From: Bacteroidota bacterium
Lineage (GTDB): Bacteria; Bacteroidota; Bacteroidia; 2-12-FULL-35-15
Length of the DNA: 64,000 nt
Direction of reading: 5' to 3'
NCBI GenBank assembly: GCA_947449315.1
Contig: CANFRC010000011.1
Coordinates: forward strand, 1-64,000
Positions 6,538 through 24,054 of the stretch are shown one piece after another. The position numbers were made by a program, and so were the translations under genes. Below the pieces are notes generated by a model that worked only from the letters and a program-made list of their open reading frames with translations, had not been told where the DNA came from and ran no database searches. Positions within the stretch are counted from its first letter, which is position 1. Each line of letters begins with the position of its first letter.

Positions 6538-6568
6538 AAAAAACCCCGAAGAAATCTTCGGGGTTTTT
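6538..6568. terminator. Terminator hairpin immediately before the epimerase start
   Basis: A strong GC-rich stem (CCCCGAAGA at 6544-6552, TCTTCGGGG at 6555-6563) with A/T tracts on both sides has the form of a bidirectional Rho-independent terminator. On the minus strand it would end the transcript of the sigma/anti-sigma operon about 330 bases after its last stop. Its U-tract touches the first possible ATG of the epimerase gene. Confidence 0.8.
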
Positions 6569-6733
6569 GTTGGTTTAATAAACGTTCGTCGTAGTTTTTT
6601 TCATTCAATCAAAAATGCTATTTGTTTGCTCGATACAAATATAAAAAACAAAAGGGCATCATAACTAATTTTTAGTTCTAATGCCTCTTCTGTTAGTGAG
6701 CCTGTTGGAGTAGCAACATGGTATACAATTCTA
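6569..6733. other. Non-coding remainder of the 6538-6894 gap
   Basis: I see no gene, RNA or repeat here. The gap between the epimerase and the anti-sigma-like gene holds the terminator hairpin at one end and a short decayed coding remnant at the other; this stretch lies between them. Confidence 0.5.
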
Positions 6734-6885
6734 TTAATTTACAAAACACATTTTAGGAACATCGGTAACAAAAACCGTGAATGTAGAGGTGGTAGAACTA
6801 AAAACAGGATTAATATTTTGGGAATTTTCAGCGCCTGACGTTGGACCAAGCCTAACCAATTCCTTCCCGATGCTCCAAAAACTGT
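6734..6885 (-). pseudogene. Decayed remnant of a secreted PKD/adhesin-type repeat
   Basis: About 50 codons read in one minus-strand frame give a sequence with the pattern GPTSG...NINPVFSSTT and STFTVFVTDVP, ending at a TAA (6734-6736). This matches the rhythm of the WSPxxGLSNPNixNPxasPtTTTTYTVTVTD repeats of Bacteroidota secreted proteins, two of which are present in the large cargo protein at 18488. There is no start codon and no signal sequence, and it begins almost directly after the anti-sigma-like gene in a different frame. I read it as a leftover of a lost gene or of an earlier, longer C-terminus. Confidence 0.45.
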
Positions 6886-6894
6886 GTTGTTTTT

Positions 6895-7869
6895 TTATCT
6901 CGTTAATTTAATTTTTCCTTTTGCTTCTAATTTTTTTCCATCGGCCCCTGTTGCAGAGACAATGTATAAATACAACCCTTCTTTCGCTTTGGCCCCTGTT
7001 AAGGTTGTGCCATCCCATTTGCCATTGATGCCGATATAATCGTAGACAACATTTCCTTTCGTATCATAAACGGTGGCATTCATATTAACAATGTTTTTAC
7101 TTGTGAATGTAAATACATCTTCTTTCCCATCTCCGTTAGGAGAAAATTCCGAAGGCATAGAAGCTAAAGATGAGTTTCCGGTTACTTCTATTTTCAAACT
7201 GTCAATCGCCGCTTTTCCATCAGGACCAATTGAGTTAAGCGTTATCGTATACAATCCGGGAACATCAAACACTTTTATTGGGTTTGAACCAGTAATTGAT
7301 TTTGTTCCATCGTTAAACGACCATTTATTTATTTTTCCTGTTCCAATATTTGAAAGGTTAACGATTAAAGGAACGGCTCCGCCTATGCAGCTAGAGGAAA
7401 TGGAAGCGACACGGTCTTCAGAGAATGCACTTAATTCCTTTTGTACCAATTTTTTATTTTTTACCGAAACAGGAACTTGATTTTTTACTGGCTTTTTTTC
7501 CGTGTTATCAACTACTTCTTCTTTTGTTATATTCGTTGGAGTTGCTATTGTATTTTTAATTTCATCTACACGAATAGGTGCTGGTTTCTCTGCGATTTGT
7601 TTTGTTGGGGTTTCGGTAATTGGTTTAACTATTTCTGTTTTGTTTCCTGAGTAGTTCATAACTAATACGGTACCTACAACAGTCGCTGCAGAAGACACAA
7701 TAGCAACAATGGTATTGGTTCCAATTTTATTCAAAAGCATCTTTGCTAACGCTCCCACACCTGCACCTTTAAGGCCTGTCTGAATGTTCTTCCATACACT
7801 CGGATTTACTTCCGCTTCGAAGTTTTCGAATGATTTCTTAAACATATCTTCTAATTCATTTTCCTTCAT
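6895..7869 (-). CDS. Anti-sigma-like membrane protein with PKD domain and T9SS type B-like C-terminal domain
   Basis: A 324-residue protein. Residues 1-50 are cytoplasmic and charged, with a short FxxFExxVxPSVWKNIQ-type segment seen at the start of Bacteroidota anti-sigma-like proteins. One membrane helix spans about 52-71, followed by a Thr/Pro/Lys-rich linker (75-145). Next are a PKD-like domain (about 155-230, WSFNDG core) and a domain beginning SEFSPNGDGKEDVFTF (239-324) that is typical of gliding-motility/T9SS type B C-terminal domains. The start lies 2 bases after the stop of the ECF sigma gene, so it is very probably that factor's regulator. There is no cleavable signal peptide, so the sorting-type domain would face the periplasm on an inner-membrane anchor. 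Confidence 0.82.
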   Translation of the reverse strand: MKENELEDMFKKSFENFEAEVNPSVWKNIQTGLKGAGVGALAKMLLNKIGTNTIVAIVSSAATVVGTVLVMNYSGNKTEIVKPITETPTKQIAEKPAPIRVDEIKNTIATPTNITKEEVVDNTEKKPVKNQVPVSVKNKKLVQKELSAFSEDRVASISSSCIGGAVPLIVNLSNIGTGKINKWSFNDGTKSITGSNPIKVFDVPGLYTITLNSIGPDGKAAIDSLKIEVTGNSSLASMPSEFSPNGDGKEDVFTFTSKNIVNMNATVYDTKGNVVYDYIGINGKWDGTTLTGAKAKEGLYLYIVSATGADGKKLEAKGKIKLTR

Positions 7870-7871
7870 TT

Positions 7872-8399
7872 CTATCTATCTATAGGTATTATTTTTTGTA
7901 AATGTGCTTTTGCCCTTGAGTATTGAGATTTTGAAGTTCCTTCTGAAATGTTCAGCATTTCACCTATCTCTTTGTGTGAATAACCCTCAATGGCATAAAG
8001 GTTAAAAACCGTTTTAAATCCAACCGGCAGCGACTGTATTATTTTTAATAGGTCCTGCGCTGCAAAATTATCGTTTAAATAACCGGATGATGGCAACATA
8101 AACTCCACACTGTCCAGATCTATATTTTGTTTAAATTTTTTATTCTTTCTGATGTTGGAAAGCGCTGTGTTTACAAGTATTTTTCTTATCCACCCCTCTA
8201 ATGATCCTGTTCCCTTGTACGACTCAATGTTTTCAAAAACACTAATAAACCCCATTTGCACGACATCTTCCGCTTCTTCTGAACTATCACAATAACGAAG
8301 GCAAAGCCCCATCATCTTGCGAACAAATTTTTCGTACAAATGTTTTTGAGCAATTGCATTCTTTTCAATGCACCCTTTTACTATTTGCTCATCAGTCAT
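7872..8399 (-). CDS. ECF-type RNA polymerase sigma-70 factor
   Basis: A 175-residue extracytoplasmic-function sigma factor. Region 2 is at about residues 10-75 with EEAEDVVQMGFISVFENI and the GSLEGWIRKILVNTAL segment. Region 4 is at about 115-170 with the helix-turn-helix in GYSHKEIGEMLNISEGTSKS. No extra domains are present. It forms a two-gene operon with the downstream membrane protein, its likely anti-sigma partner. The short divergent region to rnr contains AACTTTGC on the minus strand, a partial match to the Bacteroidota -7 box. Confidence 0.92.
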   Translation of the reverse strand: MTDEQIVKGCIEKNAIAQKHLYEKFVRKMMGLCLRYCDSSEEAEDVVQMGFISVFENIESYKGTGSLEGWIRKILVNTALSNIRKNKKFKQNIDLDSVEFMLPSSGYLNDNFAAQDLLKIIQSLPVGFKTVFNLYAIEGYSHKEIGEMLNISEGTSKSQYSRAKAHLQKIIPIDR

Positions 8400-8514
8400 A
8401 ATTGGTTTCTGAAGTATAGATGCAAAGTTGCATTATTTGGTTGCACAACAAAAAAATTTTTTAGTTTTTATTAACAAACCTTTCTTTATCCACAAAACAG
8501 TAGCACTTTTGGGT

Positions 8515-10968: not shown

Positions 10969-11721
10969 TTAAATCATATTCAATCTTTTCGACAAATCAT
11001 CTTTGTATGAACCACCAATTGGAATTAGTTTTTTATCTTCTTCCAAAATTAAATTCGGTTGTTCGATAGCAACAATTTTATCGATTCGAACAATGAAAGA
11101 ACGATGAACACGAATAAAATCGTTTACAGGAAGTTTTTTCTCAATATCCTTCATTGTGGAGTGAATCGTATATCTGGCGCTACTTGTATTGATCACAACG
11201 TAATCTTTTAAGGCTTCCACAAAATAAATATCGTTCGTTTTCACTTTTACCAAGCGGGAATTCGACTTAACAAAAATGATGTCCTTCGACTCATTATTTT
11301 CAACAATTGAATACAGGAAATCGCGTTCTTTTTTAACATCCGTATCTTTCTCATGCTTGTAGATGGCCATTTCAATGGATGTATGTAAATCAATTTCTTT
11401 GAATGGTTTGATGATATACCCGAAAGGTTCTGAAACTTTTGCCTTACTTAATGTACTTTCATCCGCATACGCTGTAAGATAAATAATAGGAATATTAAAT
11501 TTTTCACGAATTTGTGCTGCCGCCTCAATTCCGCTCATATCGCCCTTTAGCATAATATCCATTAATATCAGGTCGGGTTTTACATCTTCAGCCGTTTTGA
11601 TAGCATCTTCCCCAGAGGAGCAAATTCCAACAACGAAGTAACCAAGTTTTTTCAGACTATGCTGAATATGCTTTGCAACAATGCTTTCATCTTCTACTAT
11701 AAGTATATTCGTTTTTGACAT
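10969..11721 (-). CDS. LytTR-family response regulator
   Basis: A 250-residue two-domain regulator. The receiver domain covers about residues 4-120, with the acidic pair near residues 11-12, phospho-acceptor Asp55 in LILMDIMLKG and the conserved Lys in IIKPFKE. The LytTR DNA-binding domain covers about 148-246 with VKTNDIYFVEALKDYV and FIRVHRSFIV. It is encoded 3 bases after the upstream histidine kinase and is surely its partner. Target promoters cannot be read from the sequence, but the pair lies directly next to the T9SS cargo operon on the same strand. Confidence 0.93.
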   Translation of the reverse strand: MSKTNILIVEDESIVAKHIQHSLKKLGYFVVGICSSGEDAIKTAEDVKPDLILMDIMLKGDMSGIEAAAQIREKFNIPIIYLTAYADESTLSKAKVSEPFGYIIKPFKEIDLHTSIEMAIYKHEKDTDVKKERDFLYSIVENNESKDIIFVKSNSRLVKVKTNDIYFVEALKDYVVINTSSARYTIHSTMKDIEKKLPVNDFIRVHRSFIVRIDKIVAIEQPNLILEEDKKLIPIGGSYKDDLSKRLNMI

Positions 11722-11724
11722 ATT

Positions 11725-13779
11725 TTAAATTCTATTTTTTACTTGATTTTGTTTAAATACAATGGAATAATTCGTCCCTTTCTCCAAATGCAGTTCAATT
11801 GTTCCACTCAATTGATCGGTCAAAGTTACAACTAATTGTAACCCTAAAGACTCCGTATTTCTGTAATCTATGTGCTTAGGCAATCCTTTTCCATTATCTC
11901 CAATCAACAATATCAAGTCGTCCTCAACAATTTTCATTTTGATGGATACCTCTCCGCCTTCCTTTTTTTCGACGAACGCGTGTTTTAAGGCGTTGGAAAC
12001 AATTTCATTAATGATTAATCCACATGGAATTGCCAGGTCTAAATTAAGAAAAACATTTTGAATGTCAAGATTTAATTTTATTTCACGATCAAAATTAGAA
12101 TAGGAGTGAATTAGATTTTGTGACAGATTGATAATATATTCCGAAAAATTAATGCTTGAAAAATCCTTTGTCTGATAAAGGCTTTCGTGAATAAAAGCCA
12201 TGGATTTTATTCTATTTTGGCTTTCTTTTAAAATACTAAGCGTTCCTTCATCCTTAACATAAGACGACTGAAGGTTCAAAATACTTGAAATTACCTGCAA
12301 GTTGTTTTTTACCCGGTGGTGCACTTCTTTCAAAAGAATCTCTTTTTCCTGCAACGACTTTCTGATTTTTGCTTCCGATTGCTTCTTTTCCGTTATATCA
12401 TGACCGATACCGGAAACCTCTAACACATCTCCATTTTCATTAAAAATAGGATTCAAATAGATCTCTCTCCAGGATTCTTCCCCATTTTTATTTATAAACT
12501 CTGTTTCTAAATATTGTGGATTGCCTGCAAAAGCGCTTTCGTACTTTTTGATCCAAAAGTTATCATACGGCTCACTCGACTGGCTATCAAAGGCAAAGAC
12601 AGAAACACCAACTTGTGCTTCGATTCCGGATTGTTTCAAAAGTTGATGCGCATAATTTTTGTTAAACGTTGACAGGCGCAAGTTTTTGTCCACTGTCCAA
12701 ATAATATGGGAGCCGCTTTCAATAATCGCATTTAATTTTACAGATTGCGTAAACAGCTTTTCCTGGCTTTGTTTTATTTCTTTTTCAATTTGCTGTTTCT
12801 CCGTAATATTTCTAAAGATTCCTCTTGTAGAAACAAAAATCCCGTTTTCGAACTTGCTACTTAAATTTCCTTCACAAATCACGGCTGCTCCTTCTTTCGA
12901 GATAAACGTTAATTCGACATTCGCAATGGATTCGCCTAATAAAATCTTTTTAAAAATAGCCTGACAGTGTTCTAGCGAATTCGGGTGAATAAAATCAAAT
13001 ACGCTGCAGGTTTCAATATCCCGATCATCATACCCTAGTATTTTTTTCCATTCATTATTTACATAAAAAATCTTTCCATCAACTCCAACACTTTGAATAA
13101 GGTCTGTTGCATTTTCAAATAAATCACGGTATTTTGCTTCGCTCTCCTTTAATTCTCTTTCCGCTCTTTTTAATTCTGAGACGTCATGAGAAACACCCAT
13201 GGCACCCACAACAACGCCTTCGTCATTCTTTATAACAGATGCCGATAAGAAGGCAACAAATAGTTCGCCCGATTTTTTTTTGTTAACCACTTCCCCAGAA
13301 AAAGAGCCCTTTGTATAGATTTCATCATCGGTGATTCTTCTTCTCTCGTTTGGGTTTGCATATAAAACACTGACATGTTTCCCTATCACCTCTTCCGGCT
13401 TATATCCGAATTTTTTCTGAGCAGCGACATTAAATTCTATTATCAACCCTTCTCTATCTGATGCACAAATCATATCCAATGAACTGTCAATAAGCAGACG
13501 CGTAAACTTTTGTGCGCCTTCTAAAATTCGTTCCGCTTTTTTGCGTTCGGATATTTCCTGTTGAAGTTTCTTATTTATTTCTTCTGCAAGCTGAGCTCTC
13601 GTTTGTTCTTTTAAGAGCTGTTTTTCGGAAGAGCTATCCTCTAAACTACTTGAAACAGGAGGCCCTTTTGAAGTTTTTTTTATTGGATTTATTACTTTTT
13701 TTTGTAATAATTCCACTTGCTTCTGAAGTTTTTGAACCTCGGAAATTAATTCGCTTTTTGTTTTTTTAGAAAGTGTCAT
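11725..13779 (-). CDS. Multi-PAS sensor histidine kinase, HisKA_2 type
   Basis: A 684-residue protein without membrane helices, so probably a cytoplasmic sensor. The order is an N-terminal coiled coil (about 5-90), three PAS domains with PAC motifs (about 90-205, 213-326, 345-463), a HisKA_2 dimerisation domain with EVHHRVKNNLQ (His487/488), and an HATPase with NEIVSNALKHAF and DNGKGLP. HisKA_2 kinases commonly pair with LytTR regulators in Bacteroidota, and the partner gene follows 3 bases downstream. The signal is unknown; three PAS domains suggest a small ligand, redox state or light. Confidence 0.92.
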   Translation of the reverse strand: MTLSKKTKSELISEVQKLQKQVELLQKKVINPIKKTSKGPPVSSSLEDSSSEKQLLKEQTRAQLAEEINKKLQQEISERKKAERILEGAQKFTRLLIDSSLDMICASDREGLIIEFNVAAQKKFGYKPEEVIGKHVSVLYANPNERRRITDDEIYTKGSFSGEVVNKKKSGELFVAFLSASVIKNDEGVVVGAMGVSHDVSELKRAERELKESEAKYRDLFENATDLIQSVGVDGKIFYVNNEWKKILGYDDRDIETCSVFDFIHPNSLEHCQAIFKKILLGESIANVELTFISKEGAAVICEGNLSSKFENGIFVSTRGIFRNITEKQQIEKEIKQSQEKLFTQSVKLNAIIESGSHIIWTVDKNLRLSTFNKNYAHQLLKQSGIEAQVGVSVFAFDSQSSEPYDNFWIKKYESAFAGNPQYLETEFINKNGEESWREIYLNPIFNENGDVLEVSGIGHDITEKKQSEAKIRKSLQEKEILLKEVHHRVKNNLQVISSILNLQSSYVKDEGTLSILKESQNRIKSMAFIHESLYQTKDFSSINFSEYIINLSQNLIHSYSNFDREIKLNLDIQNVFLNLDLAIPCGLIINEIVSNALKHAFVEKKEGGEVSIKMKIVEDDLILLIGDNGKGLPKHIDYRNTESLGLQLVVTLTDQLSGTIELHLEKGTNYSIVFKQNQVKNRI

Positions 13780-15457: not shown

Positions 15458-17461
15458 TTATTGATTCGAAGAAAAAGTGGAAATGGCAATGATCTGTATT
15501 TTGCGTTCTAAGGCGGCCATCGGATTATAGATGGAGTTTTTCGTATCATAATAATCGTCGCTTACATTGGGACGCGCCTTGAGCTCCCCTATGTCTTCAT
15601 TAAAAAAAGTAATGCTCCCTTCTGCCTTATTAGGGTTATCAACATACTTCACAAAAACACCGTTTTGATATCCCATGAAATAATTACGCAAGCTGGATAT
15701 TCTTCGTTTCGCGAGATTTATATTGTAGTCGGTTGATGCCAAGGGGCTGCAAAACCCTTTCATCGTGATGGTTACTTTTTCACTGTCATTTAAAACTTTC
15801 AGCAGCAGTTGTGCAAACTTTTCAAGGTCCTGCATTCCAGCATTTACAGAGTCATCAAAAAGGTTGTCAATGTCGTTATCTGCTCTTTCTTTGTCGATAT
15901 CCTTTGCACCTCTTGAATATTCTTTTTTATATAATTCGCGCATTGCAGCATAGTCTTCATACGTTTTTTTATAGTTTTTTGTGGTTGTTATAGCGAGCGT
16001 TTTTTTGTCTGGCTCATCATTATGAAAATAGAGCGTGAGCGGGACAAGTAATTTCATTTGAGTTACAAATATTTTTGTACTATCAACCTGTATAGGTGGT
16101 ACGTTTGGTTTAGGAAGTTTAATCATGTAAATATCATTACAACAACTTTCTTTCTCCTCGAAAAAAGACCCTATACGATTTGAAGAAATAAACGCTTCGG
16201 TCTTCTTAGAATTAATAGAAAAATAAATGTCATTTAAGTTGCTATTAAAGGGTAGTCCTAGATTTTTAGGTTCTCCCAATTCTTTGTTTTTGTATTCACT
16301 TTTAAAAATATCGAAGCCCCCTAACCCTTTGTGCCATGTTGAACTAAAAAACAACTCCTGGCAAGGAGTGCAATAATATGGCGTTATTTCATCATCAATC
16401 GTATTGACCTTTTTGCCTGCATTTACAGGCTTCTCATAGCTACCGTCCTTGCCAATTTTGCTATACCAAATATCCATCTTCCCTTCCCCTCCAGAACGGT
16501 TAGAAGCAAAAAATAACACCTCATCATCACCTAAAAATCCGATTGCCGGTTGCGTATTTGTTGATCCTTTTGCGTTTATTTCAGGAGGCAATTTTTTTAA
16601 TGATTCCCATCGCCCGTTTTTATAATCGGAGGAGTAGATCTCACAATTAAACTCTTGTGCATTCTTCTGAACACACCTAGTAATATACACTTTAGTGAAA
16701 TTGGCATTAAAAGATGTGTTTGCGTTGTGTATTCCCTGACGATTAAAAAGTGTATCGAGTTCAATTGCTTTTTCCCACTTCAAACTATCTTGAACGGCTG
16801 TATAAATTTTGTTGTAGCTCACTTTATTTTTTTTGTCAGCATCCTTTTTATCACGCAAAGAAGAAAAGTACAAAAGGCTGTTAACCTGTACTGGCGCGTA
16901 TTCCGACACTTTACTGTTTACAGTGCTATCCAAATGAACAATGCTTACACTTTTATCGGGACTAGCCACAAGCAGCTGTGCGTAATCACAAGCTGCAACT
17001 TCCTGTATCGCTTTTTTTACAAAATAGCTATCCTTTTTTTTCTTGTTTTTCTTCGCGTACTTATCAAATAATTTTTTTGCGTCTTTGTATTTTGCCTGTG
17101 TTTTTTTGATGCTTGCAATCCAGAAAACACATTCCGGATATAGCTTTCCTTGTGCATCCTTTTTATAAACCTTAGCATACCAATGGTCCGCAATTGTAAA
17201 ATCGAAATTCAAACGACTCGCTTCTGCGTATCTATATTGAATCGTAATGTCGGTGGAATCCTGCAAAATAGCCTGATTGTAATAAATAGCCGCGCTAAAA
17301 AAATTGTTGTCAGCAAATGCTTTATCGCCGTCGGCAAGAAGTGTTTTTAGTTTTTGTGCAGGAAGCGAAGCGCTAAAAATAAGGAAGAAGAGAAGAAAAA
17401 AAAGTATGTTCTTTCTTCGATAACAATAAAATGATTGATTCGCGTTCTTGTCAAAAATCAT
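15458..17461 (-). CDS. T9SS-associated TPR/PD40/OmpA-like protein (PorE-like architecture)
   Basis: A 667-residue exported protein. The order is a signal peptide (hydrophobic core about 17-35), TPR-like helices (about 40-150), PD40/beta-propeller repeats (about 190-450) with ASNRSGGEGKMDIWYSK and FSSTWHKGLGGFDIFKS, and an OmpA-like peptidoglycan-binding domain (about 560-665). The layout matches Bacteroidota PD40-OmpA proteins, including PorE, which tethers the T9SS to peptidoglycan. The OmpA loop reads GFCSPLASTDYNINLAKRR, a variant of the usual GHTD...NxxLSxxR. The gene begins 3 bases after the PorP/SprF stop, so it is translationally linked. Confidence 0.82.
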   Translation of the reverse strand: MIFDKNANQSFYCYRRKNILFFLLFFLIFSASLPAQKLKTLLADGDKAFADNNFFSAAIYYNQAILQDSTDITIQYRYAEASRLNFDFTIADHWYAKVYKKDAQGKLYPECVFWIASIKKTQAKYKDAKKLFDKYAKKNKKKKDSYFVKKAIQEVAACDYAQLLVASPDKSVSIVHLDSTVNSKVSEYAPVQVNSLLYFSSLRDKKDADKKNKVSYNKIYTAVQDSLKWEKAIELDTLFNRQGIHNANTSFNANFTKVYITRCVQKNAQEFNCEIYSSDYKNGRWESLKKLPPEINAKGSTNTQPAIGFLGDDEVLFFASNRSGGEGKMDIWYSKIGKDGSYEKPVNAGKKVNTIDDEITPYYCTPCQELFFSSTWHKGLGGFDIFKSEYKNKELGEPKNLGLPFNSNLNDIYFSINSKKTEAFISSNRIGSFFEEKESCCNDIYMIKLPKPNVPPIQVDSTKIFVTQMKLLVPLTLYFHNDEPDKKTLAITTTKNYKKTYEDYAAMRELYKKEYSRGAKDIDKERADNDIDNLFDDSVNAGMQDLEKFAQLLLKVLNDSEKVTITMKGFCSPLASTDYNINLAKRRISSLRNYFMGYQNGVFVKYVDNPNKAEGSITFFNEDIGELKARPNVSDDYYDTKNSIYNPMAALERKIQIIAISTFSSNQ

Positions 17462-17464
17462 AGC

Positions 17465-18487
17465 CTACATATAAATTGGACAAACGCGTTGTTTTGCAAT
17501 AAAAGGTTTGATCTTCTTGAAGATATAGATCACAGAAAGTTCAAACCCTCCCCGGTGATTTGTTGCCGCAATCAATTTTGATGTATTCATATCATAACTT
17601 ACACCTACCGTAATGTTGCGGTAATCCATATTTGCAACAAGAATAAACGCATCTTTCAGTCTGTAAAAACCGCCTATCGAAACAGCTGTTGTCATTCCGT
17701 CGACAGGTTTCAAATAATATTTACCAAATAAACCCATGACCGTTTCATGAAACTTGCCTTGCTTTTGATATAATACAGTTGGCAGAACATCTATCTGTTC
17801 TGTAACGGGTAATTCAAGAAGTCCGTTGATGCTTGTTTTTACATCTAAACGAATAGCATCATTATTAAAAAACGATTGTTTGGGCTTGTTTAAGTGCAAT
17901 GCAGAAACCCCAATACTTGCTTGAGTCCTAGCATTTTTTTTATACAAATATGCTACCCCTCCACCAAAATCGAAATAGGTGATTCTTGTTCTTGGAAAAT
18001 TTTCTCCGCTGGGCAATGATGGATCATAATTGTCGCCATCAAATTGATTGTCAAAGGTAAGTGCATTGATATTAAAGCTTTTCGAACTAACGCCAGGTTG
18101 CAATGCAACAGAAATAAAATGCGTTGAATCTTTATTTAATTTTTTTATGTACGCACCGGACAAATAAATTTGTGTGGTTGTAAATTTTGAGTCCCCCGAT
18201 TTATCGGTGTTAACAACTACTCCGGCAGCAACCGCATCATTCTTAAGTTTTGTATCCAGCCGGGTATCTGATGCAATGGAGAAAGTTCTATACGGAACAG
18301 GGATAATGGACCATTGACTTCTGAAGTTTCCAACAAACCTCCAATCGCCATTAAACAGACCCGTTTGAGAAGGGTTTAAATTTTGTGGCGAAGCATTAAA
18401 TTGTGAATAATGAATGTCTTGTGCACAAACAAAACTCACACAAAAGACAGCTAAAAATAATATGATCTTATTTTTTTTCATTTTCAA
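17465..18487 (-). CDS. PorP/SprF family T9SS outer-membrane protein
   Basis: A 340-residue predicted outer-membrane beta-barrel with a signal peptide (residues 1-22, CVSFVCAQ). The family hallmark QDIHYSQFNASPQNLNPS is at the mature N-terminus and GDWRFVGNFRSQW follows. SprF is needed for delivery of the adhesin SprB in Flavobacterium, and PorP belongs to the P. gingivalis T9SS. PorP/SprF paralogues are typically encoded just after a type B-sorted cargo, as here: the start codon directly abuts the stop of the 1,201-residue cargo gene. It is likely the dedicated partner of that cargo. Confidence 0.93.
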   Translation of the reverse strand: MKMKKNKIILFLAVFCVSFVCAQDIHYSQFNASPQNLNPSQTGLFNGDWRFVGNFRSQWSIIPVPYRTFSIASDTRLDTKLKNDAVAAGVVVNTDKSGDSKFTTTQIYLSGAYIKKLNKDSTHFISVALQPGVSSKSFNINALTFDNQFDGDNYDPSLPSGENFPRTRITYFDFGGGVAYLYKKNARTQASIGVSALHLNKPKQSFFNNDAIRLDVKTSINGLLELPVTEQIDVLPTVLYQKQGKFHETVMGLFGKYYLKPVDGMTTAVSIGGFYRLKDAFILVANMDYRNITVGVSYDMNTSKLIAATNHRGGFELSVIYIFKKIKPFIAKQRVCPIYM

Positions 18488-21400
18488 TTACCGAATAAGG
18501 GTGGTGTTTCCTTGTTTTTTTAATTCACTACCATTATAACATTTCGCTGTAAGGTACCAAGCAAAAACAGCGGGATCTGCCTTCATATCATTATAAACAC
18601 CATCCCAGCCCTTATGAATATCATCTGTTTCGAAAACCAATTGACCCCACCTGTTGTAAACTGCAAAATAAAGCTCGGCCACAGAATTGCTTCTAACATA
18701 TAAAACATCGTTGTGCCCATCACCATTTGGAGTGAACGTGTTAGGAACAAAAACATCATCTAAATTACATTTCATTGATTTCACATAAATTGTAATTGTT
18801 GCACTTACAGTACATCCCAATGCATTTGTTATGGTAACGGTATACGTAGTCGTTACTTCTGGTGTTACTGTCGGATTAAAAGCGTTTGGATTACTTACAC
18901 CGATTGCAGGACTCCATAAAATTGTAAGTGTTGTGTCTGTGATTGCATGAATAATTGTTGATTGTCCTGGACTCAACGAATCGTTGTCTGCTGATGCAGA
19001 AAGCGCAAACGAGGCCGGATCAAAAACAGAAACCGTGGTTGACAACATTTGGGAACAGGTATCTCCCTGAGCATTTACAGCAGTGACCGTTACTGTATAT
19101 GTAGTGGTTACAGCTGGTGTTGCCATTGGATTGCTTATCGTTGAATTACTTAACCCTGACGCTGGTGACCAACTGTAAGAAAAGCCGCCAGAAGCTGAAA
19201 GAGGTGCGGTTCCACCTATACAAACAGATTGATTTGCATTTATTGTTGCCCCGGAAGTATTATTAAAAACTATCGCAGCAGTGTCGGGACAACCATTTGC
19301 GGTTGTTGAAATCAAACTTATATTATAATTTCCGGAAGAAGGAAATGTATGTGTCGGGTTTTGTGAGGTTGACGTAAAACCATCGCCAAAGTCCCATTGC
19401 CAGGAAACTGGCGACACAGCAGAAGAATCATAAAAGTTTAGCGTATTCGAGCAAGGGGGATTTGAGAAATCGAATGCAGCAGAAATTCCCGGATAAACAG
19501 TAATAAAAGTAAAGGCCGTGTCTGCAATGTTACATCCAGTATTTGCTAAGATGAGAGACACCAAATAGGTTCCGGGCACATTGAAAACATGCGTTGGGTT
19601 ATAAATTATTGAAGAAGTATCTCCTCCTCCAAAATCCCACAAATACGTTCCGTAGGGGGAACTTAAATTGCTGAATGTAACAGAAAAGGGAGCACAACCA
19701 GCTGCTGTATCGATTCTGAAATCGGCATGAACGGGAGGAACCTGAAAATCAAATTTAAATGTTCCATTGTTACAATTGGATGACATATTAATTCCACTAG
19801 AAGAAACGCCAGTTGTCAATGGCGAATAAATTGGGCTAGAATAAGGCCAAGAACCAGGAGTAACTGGAAAATCATCATTCCCTCCGCAACCTGCACAAAC
19901 CGATTGGTAAATAATTCCCTTTTTATCAAACCGGCTTGTTCCTCCATCTACGTGCTCCCAACTACTCGCACCACCAAAATAGGTGGCATAAAACAAGGAT
20001 GCTGCATTCGCAGACAAAACGATTAAATAAAAGTTGTGCCCATCTGTTGTGGCTTGATAAGCCCCGGGTGTAATAGGCATTCCGGTTGTTGTCGTTACAG
20101 GAGGAACAATTTTTCCGCCCCATCCAGAAACATAAATATTCTTGCATTCATCCACCAAAAAAGCGGATGGTGAAATATTGGGAGCGCCACTTCCGTTGCC
20201 AAAAACAGTTGAAAAACCAATTGTTGTAAGAGCATCATTCATTCGTGTAATAAACTGCCCGCTGTTGGGATTGCTATATACGCCTGGTGTGACAGGCATC
20301 AAACCTTCTGTTTGACCAACAACATATACATTGCTATCCTTGTCCAATTGTATAAAATACGTTTGGTCATATGCAGGAGTTCCCCAATAAGTGGATGCAA
20401 GAAGTGCGGCTCCATCTTTCTTTATTTTTGAAATATAACCATCTGCTTTCCCACCTTGATACGTGGTGTGCACCACTCCTGCAGTTGTTGGAAAATTATT
20501 ACTTCTTGTTCCTCCAGTAATATAAACATTCGAAGAATCGTCAAGCGCCAATGCATAGCCCGCATCATTATCACTTCCACCAAGATAAGTGCTCCACAAC
20601 AAAGTAGAAAAATCGGAATTGAATTTAAAGGCTACAGCATCTTGCTCGCCGCCCAAGGTGTTGTCAAAACCACCAACAATTGGAAAATTTCCTGAGCGCG
20701 TTGAACTTGCTATATAGGCATTTCCGGCAGCATCAACATTGATCTCGCCACGATATTGGTCTCCATAATTATATTGCAGCGAATCGGCAGGAAACTCATA
20801 GGTTGTGCCAGAAAACAAAACACTGTCGTTGTTTACGTTCACCCCGTCATTCATAGTACCACCAATGAATGTGGATGCCATTAACGTTGTGCCGGTAGAA
20901 TTAAATTTAGCAACGTAAATGTCTGTGCCATTATCAAAAAAAGATCCGTTATAAATAAAGTGCAACAGTATTCCGCCATTAAACGTTGTATCATATGCTG
21001 TGGGTGTGACAGGAAAATCGGACGAACCTGTAGCACCATACAATAACAGATTTTCGGCATTATCAACCACTAAACTTGTTACGATCTCTGTACCAACAGC
21101 ACCACCTATATAGGTTGAATACTGTAAAAAGGTTCCTGATGAATCGTATTTTGTAATGACCACATCCGTTCTGCCATAAGCTGTTGCACCATTAAAAGTG
21201 GCATCATACGCGCCCAGAGTGGTTGGAAAACCAATGTCAAAACATGTTCCTCCGGAATACAAATCTCCTTGCGGATCATAAGTAGCGGTCATGCCAAAGT
21301 TGTCGGCAGTAGAGCCGGATGAACAAGCAAAAACTAGCACCGGATCGATTACTAGTTCAACATCCTGGTTATACCCTTTCGGGAAACGAAAATGTATTGT

Positions 21401-22093
21401 CTTGTTTTCTAAAACAAATTCACACGGAACTTTTACTTCTGCTCCATCAATCCATTGATATGCATATGGCTTTTCTTCAACCATTTGATTTACGCTGGTC
21501 GTTAAAATTAAAGCCCCTTTTTCAATTTTTATGTTGTCCAATCCTTCATAATAAAGTTTGATATCGTTGGTATTTGCCTTGGGAGAAACTATAAAATTGT
21601 ATTTGACACTGTTCTGCATGCCCAATATTTGCAGTTCAATTCCTTGGTATAAATTTTTATAGTTTACCTCTCTGAAATTTTTTGCATCACCGACCCATTT
21701 GCTCTTGTCTTTACCAATAAAATAATTACAATAATCGTGGGATTTGTCTCTCGCACTTGTTTCTACAGAAGACAAAGCGTTAAGGAACGACATGCGGAAA
21801 GCGTGAGAGCGAATAGGTGCTGTGGAAATGTTTTTACTGTTTTGCCCTGCATGATTGCTTCGCAAAGTTTCTTTATCGTAAAAATTATAGGTGAATGCAT
21901 TTTTTTCAAGAAACAGGGCCCCACCATCTAGCTGAGCACGAAACAAAACTTTTTTGTCCCATTGATTTTTGTTTTCAGTAAATTTTATTTTGTTCTGCGC
22001 CTCCCCTGATCTTACTCCACCGCCAGCCACCCCTTTTATAAAAAAGGAGAACAGAAAAAATAAAAAAAAATATTTTTTAACTAAACGTTTCAT
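18488..22093 (-). CDS. Large SBBP/PKD-repeat surface protein with T9SS type B sorting domain
   Basis: A 1,201-residue exported protein. The signal peptide is MKRLVKKYFFLFFLFSFF... The N-terminal domain has ENKNQWDKKVLFRAQ (DUF7948-like), followed by many SBBP beta-propeller repeats with YxTYxGGs..D cores. Two PKD domains (TYLWDFGGGDTSS and SWQWDFGDGFTST) and two WSPxxGLSN...TTTYTVTVT repeats come next. A type B T9SS C-terminal domain starts FVPNTFTPNGDGHNDVLYV. The reading frame is open to 22240, but that would overlap the upstream gene and lack a signal peptide; the ATG at 22093 is correct. It is probably a surface adhesin or matrix protein exported by T9SS with the adjacent PorP/SprF partner. 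Confidence 0.9.
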   Translation of the reverse strand: MKRLVKKYFFLFFLFSFFIKGVAGGGVRSGEAQNKIKFTENKNQWDKKVLFRAQLDGGALFLEKNAFTYNFYDKETLRSNHAGQNSKNISTAPIRSHAFRMSFLNALSSVETSARDKSHDYCNYFIGKDKSKWVGDAKNFREVNYKNLYQGIELQILGMQNSVKYNFIVSPKANTNDIKLYYEGLDNIKIEKGALILTTSVNQMVEEKPYAYQWIDGAEVKVPCEFVLENKTIHFRFPKGYNQDVELVIDPVLVFACSSGSTADNFGMTATYDPQGDLYSGGTCFDIGFPTTLGAYDATFNGATAYGRTDVVITKYDSSGTFLQYSTYIGGAVGTEIVTSLVVDNAENLLLYGATGSSDFPVTPTAYDTTFNGGILLHFIYNGSFFDNGTDIYVAKFNSTGTTLMASTFIGGTMNDGVNVNNDSVLFSGTTYEFPADSLQYNYGDQYRGEINVDAAGNAYIASSTRSGNFPIVGGFDNTLGGEQDAVAFKFNSDFSTLLWSTYLGGSDNDAGYALALDDSSNVYITGGTRSNNFPTTAGVVHTTYQGGKADGYISKIKKDGAALLASTYWGTPAYDQTYFIQLDKDSNVYVVGQTEGLMPVTPGVYSNPNSGQFITRMNDALTTIGFSTVFGNGSGAPNISPSAFLVDECKNIYVSGWGGKIVPPVTTTTGMPITPGAYQATTDGHNFYLIVLSANAASLFYATYFGGASSWEHVDGGTSRFDKKGIIYQSVCAGCGGNDDFPVTPGSWPYSSPIYSPLTTGVSSSGINMSSNCNNGTFKFDFQVPPVHADFRIDTAAGCAPFSVTFSNLSSPYGTYLWDFGGGDTSSIIYNPTHVFNVPGTYLVSLILANTGCNIADTAFTFITVYPGISAAFDFSNPPCSNTLNFYDSSAVSPVSWQWDFGDGFTSTSQNPTHTFPSSGNYNISLISTTANGCPDTAAIVFNNTSGATINANQSVCIGGTAPLSASGGFSYSWSPASGLSNSTISNPMATPAVTTTYTVTVTAVNAQGDTCSQMLSTTVSVFDPASFALSASADNDSLSPGQSTIIHAITDTTLTILWSPAIGVSNPNAFNPTVTPEVTTTYTVTITNALGCTVSATITIYVKSMKCNLDDVFVPNTFTPNGDGHNDVLYVRSNSVAELYFAVYNRWGQLVFETDDIHKGWDGVYNDMKADPAVFAWYLTAKCYNGSELKKQGNTTLIR

Positions 22094-22164
22094 GAACGAA
22101 GTAACACTATTTTTAGTTGAAGGGTCTCTATCAAAAATAAGAAAAAATATCTTATATTCAATGG

Positions 22165-24054
22165 CTATTTTGATGGTATTGCACTCATGCCCACCTTTGC
22201 CTGCTGATAATCGGGTTTTAATTCCAATGTCTTGCTCCACGCAAGTCGCGCTTTTTCATAGTCTTTAATCGTAAAAGAGGCTCCTCCGATATTATACCAA
22301 TAGTCAGCATTAGAAGGTTCAATCTCTGCCGCTTTCTCAAATCGTTTTATTGCTTCCCTTGGGTTTTTTTCACCTATTATCATCCCCTCATTAAAATACG
22401 CTGCGGCTAACAATCCAAAATTTCTCTTTAAAAGTGGGTTGTTCGGAAAGATAGATTTTGCGATGTCCCAATATTTTTTTGTTTGGTCATACTCCTTCCG
22501 CTTGAAATAACATACACCCAGGTTTAAATAACCGTTTACATATTGGGGGTGAATTTTAATTGCTCTGTTCAAATAATAAATACCCTTTTCAATTAATTCC
22601 TTTTCCTGTAATTTATTTTCCGGTTTTTCTGAAAGGTCCACAAATGCTTTTCCGGCATTTCCATTCACCAATGCACTGTTTGGAACCGTTTGGGCGTCTG
22701 TTATAAAAAGCGTCTGATCGTTTTTCCATTCTGCATTTCTAGCAATTGTTTTTACCCCACAAAGAAGCACAATAGTTCCTATTAATAATACACCCCTTGT
22801 TTTTCTTGATTTTTCATCCGTTATTTTTTTCAACAACCAATCAAGACTTATTGCAATTATAATTGCAAAGCCAAACGAAGAGTGATATATCAAACGCTCG
22901 CCCATAGTAGCACCGATGTCCATTAATAAATTAGAAACCAATGCAAGATGAATCAGATAAAATGCAAGTGCAAACGCAATCATGTTTCTTCTAAAAAACA
23001 AAACAATGGTTGCAGCAATTAATGATAAATGAATACCTATCGACAGCCAAACGAGTGGATTGAAAAAGTTTTTATAGGCAATTGTGTTGTAAGAATAATC
23101 ACTTGAAAGTGGGTGAGGAAAAAATAACGCCCTAAGGTAATGATTAAGTACCTCTATCTTTGTGGCCCATTTTTCTGGGTTTGTTGCAAACATGTATGGA
23201 TTGTTAAGTACGTCAGGGTTTTCGAAGGTGGCTCCTTTGCCGACAATTGAAAAACGGATATACAAATATATCCCTGCCACAACTGAAATTCCAATTACAG
23301 AAATCACCCCTTCTGAGGTATTATCATTTTTTATAATGAAAAGAAGCATTGGTAGCAAAACCAATAATGTGATTGCATATTCTTTTGATAATAAAGCCAA
23401 AAAATAAAACAAAAGACCGAAAAACAAGACTAACATATTCTTTGTTTCCCTGTAATTGAAAACCGAAATAAAAGTAAGAACGATAAATAAGAACGATAAA
23501 ATTTCGTCCCTGCTTTTCACATTCGCAACAACTTCTGTATGAATTGGATGAATTAAAAAAATGAGGCAAGTTAAAAATGCAACAAGGTGGTTTTTCTTGA
23601 AAATAAATTTTCGCAAAAAGAAAAGCAAAAGAACAACAGAAAAAACATAGCACAAAACATTCACAAAATGTCGAAAGTGAGCAAGGCCAAGCTGCGGATC
23701 TGTTTTATCAGATGTCTTAAACAGCTGCTGCTCAAGGGCAAAAGTAGCGATAGAAAAGGGGCGGTAGCGTCCTCCCGAAAGCTGTTGCGTTGAACCCATT
23801 TGACGATAAAAACTTTCGTATGCATCTGTCTTAAAAATTTTACGGATGCCATGAACACCTTGTTGTACATATTCATTCCCCTGAATAACGATTCCATCAT
23901 CCAACGCATATTCGTTGTTGAACGTGTTTGCGTAAAATAGCAACCCTACTATTACTAGTATCAGCGCCTGTGTTTTCAGGTAAGCAAAACGAAAGTTGCT
24001 GGTTATATCCGTGGGCAAAAGATGGGCTTCTTTTTTCGTTTGTTGCTTCATCAT
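22165..24054 (-). CDS. Polytopic GT-C-like glycosyltransferase with TPR tail (TMTC/PMT-like)
   Basis: A 629-residue inner-membrane protein. About 10 hydrophobic segments span residues 30-430, followed by four or five TPR motifs (about 460-629, for example NADYWYNIGGASFTIKDYEKA). The first extracytoplasmic loop has YALDDGIVI and later GGRYRPFSIATFALEQ. This resembles the DD and RPL/F-S motifs of eukaryotic TMTC O-mannosyltransferases and related bacterial GT-C proteins, which use lipid-linked sugars. The substrate is unknown. It ends 71 bases before the SBBP cargo gene on the same strand, so it could be co-expressed with, and even modify, that cargo; this is inference. Confidence 0.75.
   Translation of the reverse strand: MMKQQTKKEAHLLPTDITSNFRFAYLKTQALILVIVGLLFYANTFNNEYALDDGIVIQGNEYVQQGVHGIRKIFKTDAYESFYRQMGSTQQLSGGRYRPFSIATFALEQQLFKTSDKTDPQLGLAHFRHFVNVLCYVFSVVLLLFFLRKFIFKKNHLVAFLTCLIFLIHPIHTEVVANVKSRDEILSFLFIVLTFISVFNYRETKNMLVLFFGLLFYFLALLSKEYAITLLVLLPMLLFIIKNDNTSEGVISVIGISVVAGIYLYIRFSIVGKGATFENPDVLNNPYMFATNPEKWATKIEVLNHYLRALFFPHPLSSDYSYNTIAYKNFFNPLVWLSIGIHLSLIAATIVLFFRRNMIAFALAFYLIHLALVSNLLMDIGATMGERLIYHSSFGFAIIIAISLDWLLKKITDEKSRKTRGVLLIGTIVLLCGVKTIARNAEWKNDQTLFITDAQTVPNSALVNGNAGKAFVDLSEKPENKLQEKELIEKGIYYLNRAIKIHPQYVNGYLNLGVCYFKRKEYDQTKKYWDIAKSIFPNNPLLKRNFGLLAAAYFNEGMIIGEKNPREAIKRFEKAAEIEPSNADYWYNIGGASFTIKDYEKARLAWSKTLELKPDYQQAKVGMSAIPSK

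Follow-up and report, generated by a model that had tools for sequence, protein, structure and literature searches.

Sigma gene, promoter and partner protein

The window, a stretch of 64,000 nucleotides of a Bacteroidota genome, carries two adjoining genes on the minus strand at 6895-8399. The first is an ECF sigma factor gene (7872..8399) encoding 175 aa with the sigma2 and sigma4 regions and without sigma3; the second, 2 bp after it, encodes an anti-sigma factor-like partner of 324 aa (6895..7869). Both open reading frames, as proposed in the initial annotation, are present, and the sigma domains were confirmed with Pfam (Sigma70_r2, E 7.6e-16; r4_2, 2.4e-14). The layout suggested there for the partner, namely a cytoplasmic start, one membrane helix, a PKD domain and a type B domain of the type IX secretion system (T9SS), turned out to be right in every structural point.

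All parts of the partner lie on the minus strand. Residues 1-38 (7756..7869) make up a cytoplasmic two-helix anti-sigma module with the motif [ED]LFK...F..FE..V.P.VW..I, and residues 51-72 (7654..7719) a transmembrane helix, identified by a hydropathy peak of 2.17 at residues 53-71 that stands at the same place in relatives. About 50 cytoplasmic residues precede this sole strong N-terminal hydrophobic segment, and hydropathy gave no N-terminal signal peptide. The linker of residues 73-150 (7420..7653) is mostly disordered and rich in K, T, E and P, with a short helix (137-149) at its end. It is followed by a PKD domain at residues 153-231 (7177..7413), recognized both in the structural model and by Pfam PKD_4 (match 165-221, 27.7 bits at a cut-off of 27), and by a T9SS type B (CHU_C) domain at residues 236-324 (6898..7164), which is a variant without the RWG motif. 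The CHU_C type IX signal domain (PF13585) matched residues 238-320 (E 1.3e-14, 54.5 bits, cut-off 27), and TIGR04131, the NCBIfam model of type B domains, scored 29 bits in the window partner, below its cut-off of 35, and over the cut-off in several relatives. A Pfam search of the N-terminus returned no anti-sigma domain, and no RsgI_N or FecR N-terminal domain was matched in the partner at E 1 (Pfam, NCBIfam).

In alignment A1 the mean identity was 0.68 in the N-terminal module, 0.60 in the PKD domain, 0.53 in the C-terminal domain (CTD) and 0.16 in the linker (residues 73-136), whose length within the genus ranged from 71 to 95 aa. A drifting linker of kept length between conserved parts is the pattern expected of a tether joining working parts; fully extended, it has a computed reach of ~265 A. 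AlphaFold2, run on the partner with 41 relatives, gave a pLDDT above 90 for the PKD domain and the CTD, 64-70 for the N-terminus and below 50 for the linker up to residue 135. By structure comparison, the modeled PKD domain resembled the ColG PKD (Z 11.9), and the CTD resembled that of PorZ (Z 8.5) and, at Z 8-9, parts of GhpA, an adhesin of the T9SS.

Upstream of the sigma gene, 18 bp ahead of its start codon, stands the element TGCAACCAAATAATGCAACTTTGCATCT (8418..8445, minus strand), with TGCAAC as -35, a spacer of 17 bp and CATCT as -10. The exact pattern TGCAAC-(17)-C[AG]TCT precedes the sigma gene in 30 of 34 genus loci, the remainder having 1-2 changes, and its distance to the sigma ATG is 17-19 bp in most of them. 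This element, nearly invariant ahead of the sigma gene, is an ECF-type promoter and gives good support to autoregulation of the pair. Over 22 genus genomes, the pattern with a start codon close behind was found 199 times vs 24 in the reversed control. In genome G000, three other intergenic pattern sites lie no more than 50 bp from a gene, and at two of them the gene's product has a type A T9SS tail; sigma-like elements 36 and 30 bp before type A tail genes were seen at G000:C1:18671 and G000:C12:63595, respectively. Among 20 unselected TGCAACC sites from four relatives, seven precede T9SS-tail or cargo genes by Pfam (p 0.002 at a base rate of 10%); as such genes are common (5% or more of all genes), this count is suggestive only of a regulon wider than the sigma's own operon that includes T9SS cargo genes. 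The gap between the anti-sigma gene and a downstream cargo gene did not contain the promoter motif. In F. psychrophilum, ECF-type promoters precede porG, gldN, porU and one ECF/anti-sigma pair (PMC9723704).

Of 35 other genomes in this GTDB genus, 33 carry a full-length partner ortholog (37-64% identity); the remaining two genomes are 64% and 89% complete. Among the genus genomes examined, the position of the sigma ortholog is unchanged; in the loci examined, the partner directly follows it and a divergent RNase R gene lies upstream. A LytTR-like response regulator and a PAS histidine kinase are encoded at 10969-13779 (minus strand), and in many relatives upstream of the RNase R gene; they are a possible functional partner of the pair. 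On the other side, the window has a gap of ~350 bp (6538-6894) where relatives carry a T9SS cargo gene and three small genes; the TIGR01777-like epimerase gene stands beyond the gap, the intervening genes are missing, and no cargo gene directly adjoins the pair in the window. About 7 kb upstream of the pair, at 15458-22240 (minus strand), there is an operon of a type B cargo gene (1250 aa, TIGR04131 over cut-off), a PorP/SprF shuttle gene and a PorE/OmpA-like gene.

The N-terminal module and its tie to sigma factors

A profile of the first 75 residues of the partner (A2) matched in 110 of 345 genomes spread across the class, and module loci were located with the A2 and A5 profiles. In all 78 loci sampled class-wide, the gene of the module-bearing protein immediately follows a sigma-factor ORF of the same orientation, and it usually overlaps that ORF or lies within 50 bp of it. 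Together with its presence throughout the genus, this means that the fusion is no one-off. The C-termini differ: 51 of the 78 proteins end in a type B T9SS domain, as judged by an HMM trained on cargo tails only, roughly two dozen are longer proteins whose ends resemble outer-membrane barrels, and a few are short. Pfam OMP_b-brl models matched nine of the ten barrel-like proteins tested, some below cut-off. With the sigma linkage constant and the C-termini varied, the module is a regulatory head that is mobile between proteins and stays coupled to sigma factors. On a sigma tree labeled by type of C-terminus, 11 changes were counted vs 30.9 after shuffling, of which the starred branches force no more than one, so that the tree is compatible with a single swap as well as with several.

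Several loci depart from the simple plan. In the proteins at loci L146, L151, L153, L157, L159, L160 and L162, the 35-residue anti-sigma motif occurs twice in tandem before the membrane helix; they belong to two families, f9 (CTD-type) and f28 (barrel-type). At L230:3755-6869 (G050), and in other genomes of family f16, the order is sigma, CTD-type anti-sigma, second sigma and a 249-aa membrane protein without a CTD, i.e., two sigma/membrane-partner pairs back to back. At L058:14140-16324 (G014), 2 kb from the CTD-type pair, there is another sigma gene, and the protein encoded after it has 545 aa and a related motif at its N-terminus.

Contact between module and sigma was modeled in the relative G026 by reading the stop codon between the two genes as glycine, with an alignment of 30 rows. 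The two N-terminal helices reached a pLDDT of 91-93 (pTM 0.73), compared with 64-70 when the partner was modeled alone, in a construct whose six-residue linker between sigma and N-terminus favors contact and whose alignment differs from that of the partner-alone model; this suggests that the N-terminus folds on the sigma factor. The sigma/anti-sigma pairing put forward in the initial annotation is thus upheld by the unbroken synteny and by the predicted folding, and both strongly support the assignment of the partner as the anti-sigma factor of the adjacent ECF sigma, the identity of the two as a sigma/anti-sigma pair being nearly certain.

A C-terminal domain set apart from T9SS cargo

The CTDs of 81 anti-sigma proteins were aligned with 45 cargo tails of the same genus. 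By the cargo-trained HMM, the type B-like domain stands at the exact C-terminus in 30 of 30 genus partners, as it does in the CTD-type proteins counted class-wide. All 81 proteins keep the type B signature (TPNGDG, W-D-G, G-x-Y and the final L-x-R), whereas the [ND]xWG motif, present in 43 of the 45 genus cargo proteins, occurs in none of them. In 30 further cargo proteins from nine other families, WG was found in 24 and [ND]RxG in all. When pooled, [ND]xWG is present in 67/75 cargo proteins vs 0/81 anti-sigmas (Fisher p about 1e-35), a value that overstates the case because scores played a part in choosing the cargo and the kinship of the sequences makes them non-independent, although the split is still complete. 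The anti-sigma CTDs are, by their sequences, a distinct subtype of the type B domain.

The simplest reading of these alignments is that the fold would have been retained and a feature needed for ordinary export lost, which fits a protein staying anchored in the inner membrane. The earlier statement that such a domain cannot serve normal export holds in this respect: the signal peptide is absent and [ND]xWG is lost in 81/81, so the CTD is not a normal export signal. It could equally be that, with the RWG motif gone, the CTD no longer touches the T9SS. In F. johnsoniae, mutating each of five conserved type B motifs in the SprB CTD blocked secretion, the place of RWG among these five not being evident in the text of that work, and type B recognition passes through PorP/SprF shuttles (PMC12618676).

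Free forms of the domain were also observed. Proteins of 123-136 aa consisting of a signal peptide and a CTD alone, without RWG, are encoded at L046:9094-9504 and L074:3031-3402, and their CTDs are nearest to those of anti-sigmas (59-66%), not to cargo. One such secreted CTD is encoded 2 bp after the anti-sigma gene and is 66% identical to the tail of that anti-sigma. Copies with a signal peptide suggest that some partner binds the tail and that a soluble CTD is able to compete for it.

The link to the T9SS proposed in the initial annotation is supported by the type B domain on these 81 proteins and by the gene neighborhoods. A T9SS cargo gene comes next after the pair at 26 of 62 CTD-type loci vs 0 of 20 barrel-type loci (Fisher p 1.8e-4), and the same was seen outside the genus (10/31 vs 0/20, p 0.004); the window belongs to the 36 of 62 CTD-type loci without cargo as the next gene. 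Cargo of one family (SHxxGxDxxYxY...YRDC) is the neighbor of the pair in three taxonomic families, and a second cargo family has this position in two. In two genomes, porG, uppS and bamA come next after the pair, porG being over the cut-off of NF052316 in the one tested. No PorP/SprF gene was found next to the fusions in the 46 neighborhoods searched. The window's genome encodes SprA, i.e., the T9SS is present, as well as 27 type B tails that score over cut-off and 89 matches to type A; since SprA is near-universal in the class (334 of 345 genomes), co-occurrence with the T9SS is uninformative. In family f32, in which some genomes lack SprA, all ten adjacent pairs are barrel-like and none is CTD-type, albeit in small numbers.

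Known relatives, mode of action and meaning

The initial annotation knew of no described mechanism of this kind, which was too strong in view of Dma1/Dma2 (PMC13088901), an anti-sigma of Phocaeicola vulgatus (PMC9308784) and PorA (PMC7712824). Dma1/Dma2 of B. thetaiotaomicron consist of an N-terminal anti-sigma module, a membrane helix, a disordered tether and a barrel, next to an ECF21 sigma (PMC13088901). Compared by that published description, the partner shares with Dma the short anti-sigma module encoded after an ECF sigma gene, the one membrane helix and the long disordered tether. It differs in that a PKD and a T9SS type B domain replace the integral outer-membrane barrel, and in that T9SS cargo neighbors accompany the CTD type only, not the barrel type. 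The C-terminal module of Dma is destined for the outer membrane, as that of the partner would be, and the barrel-type relatives found here share the partner's N-terminal module. With the defining barrel missing, the partner was not filed as Dma and is best called a T9SS-CTD variant of the Dma architecture.

In P. vulgatus, the M0N98_03760/03761 system of a sigma and a barrel anti-sigma is induced by envelope damage, and loss of the anti-sigma turns its regulon on (PMC9308784). This anti-sigma has the cytoplasmic, inner-membrane and periplasm-spanning plan in common with the partner and differs in its barrel C-terminus, its occurrence in gut Bacteroidales and the absence of any described T9SS element. 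The idea of a CTD protein informing a sigma pathway already has a precedent in P. gingivalis, where PorA, a T9SS protein with a CTD, provides input to the PorXY-SigP sigma pathway (PMC7712824). There, too, a CTD-bearing protein influences an ECF sigma, by a sigma route that controls T9SS genes; unlike the partner, PorA is a separate surface protein acting via a two-component system, without an anti-sigma fusion. SigI/RsgI of Clostridium thermocellum combine a short cytoplasmic anti-sigma and one membrane helix with ectodomain modules shared with the regulated secreted proteins. The partner is like them in plan but has no Pfam RsgI_N match and belongs to another phylum, with another envelope and ectodomain. 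With type B cargo such as SprB it shares the domain family, the fold and an often preceding PKD (PMC12618676, PMC9143113), but cargo has a signal peptide, [ND]RWG (67/75 sampled) and usually an adjacent PorP/SprF gene, all three of which are absent from the anti-sigma; the partner does not count as ordinary T9SS cargo. In the open-access literature searched, no description of a CTD-bearing anti-sigma was found, nor any paper joining 'gliding motility-associated C-terminal' with anti-sigma.

The reading we favor, to which we give an even chance, is a Dma-like anti-sigma whose barrel was swapped for a T9SS-type module and which controls T9SS cargo by way of the outer-membrane end of the pathway. 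The two-helix module would bind the ECF sigma and hold it at the inner membrane, as synteny and prediction strongly indicate. According to sequence and model, the membrane helix and the flexible tether of ~80 residues carry the PKD-CTD part across the periplasm, where this part may reach the outer membrane. We infer that the RWG-less CTD, itself not exported, reads the state of the type B pathway through contact with its outer-membrane end, the candidates being a shuttle of the PorP/SprF kind, the translocon or the CTD of competing cargo, and that this contact governs sigma release. An altered contact would destabilize the anti-sigma, probably through proteolysis, the route taken by other membrane anti-sigmas, and the freed sigma would transcribe its own operon via TGCAAC-17-CRTCT, together with the T9SS cargo genes that often adjoin it.

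Somewhat less probable, and still a serious possibility, is that the same Dma-like anti-sigma bears in its PKD-CTD just an Ig-like ectodomain sensing envelope stress, peptidoglycan, a glycan or a small ligand, the T9SS tail resemblance being ancestry without T9SS contact. The loss of RWG in every anti-sigma CTD, the score of the window domain below the TIGR04131 cut-off, the general use of Ig/FlgD-like folds as scaffolds and the response of a barrel-type anti-sigma of the same plan to envelope stress (PMC9308784) all agree with it, but the other parts of the type B signature are kept at the exact C-terminus in 81 proteins, and T9SS cargo is enriched among the neighbors of the CTD type alone. 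Only tentatively do we propose that the anti-sigma is a non-exportable mimic of type B cargo, its CTD being gripped by the shuttle or translocon and its N-terminus fixed in the inner membrane, by which T9SS occupancy or pulling would be read out directly as sigma release tuning cargo synthesis.

That the partner is a real T9SS client, cut near the membrane so that PKD-CTD is exported and export or pulling removes the anti-sigma, is unlikely: against a type B domain at the exact C-terminus, an ectodomain that roughly suffices for the more than 200 C-terminal residues required in type B secretion (PMC10202324) and the free secreted CTDs of the same subtype stand the missing signal peptide and adjacent PorP/SprF shuttle, and a lost RWG that lies in a conserved part of a tail whose five motifs are each needed for secretion in SprB (PMC12618676). 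An unrelated membrane adhesin or structural protein merely sharing the operon, and not an anti-sigma, would explain the N-terminus without a Pfam anti-sigma domain and is most improbable given the module-sigma linkage regardless of C-terminus, the homologous module in Dma-type proteins and the predicted folding onto the sigma.

Proteins annotated with a 'T9SS type B sorting domain' fall into true cargo, which has RWG, and likely regulators, which do not, and present cargo lists, therefore, probably include regulators by mistake. As to how Bacteroidota adjust the expression of the T9SS and its cargo to the capacity for export, to our knowledge only the PorXY-SigP route of P. gingivalis has been partly worked out. 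A class-wide anti-sigma family with a non-canonical T9SS tail, whose members adjoin T9SS cargo genes and swap with outer-membrane-barrel relatives, offers a testable link from the outer membrane and the T9SS to transcription; if the cargo-mimic proposal is true, such anti-sigmas would be a widespread gauge of secretion capacity across Bacteroidia.
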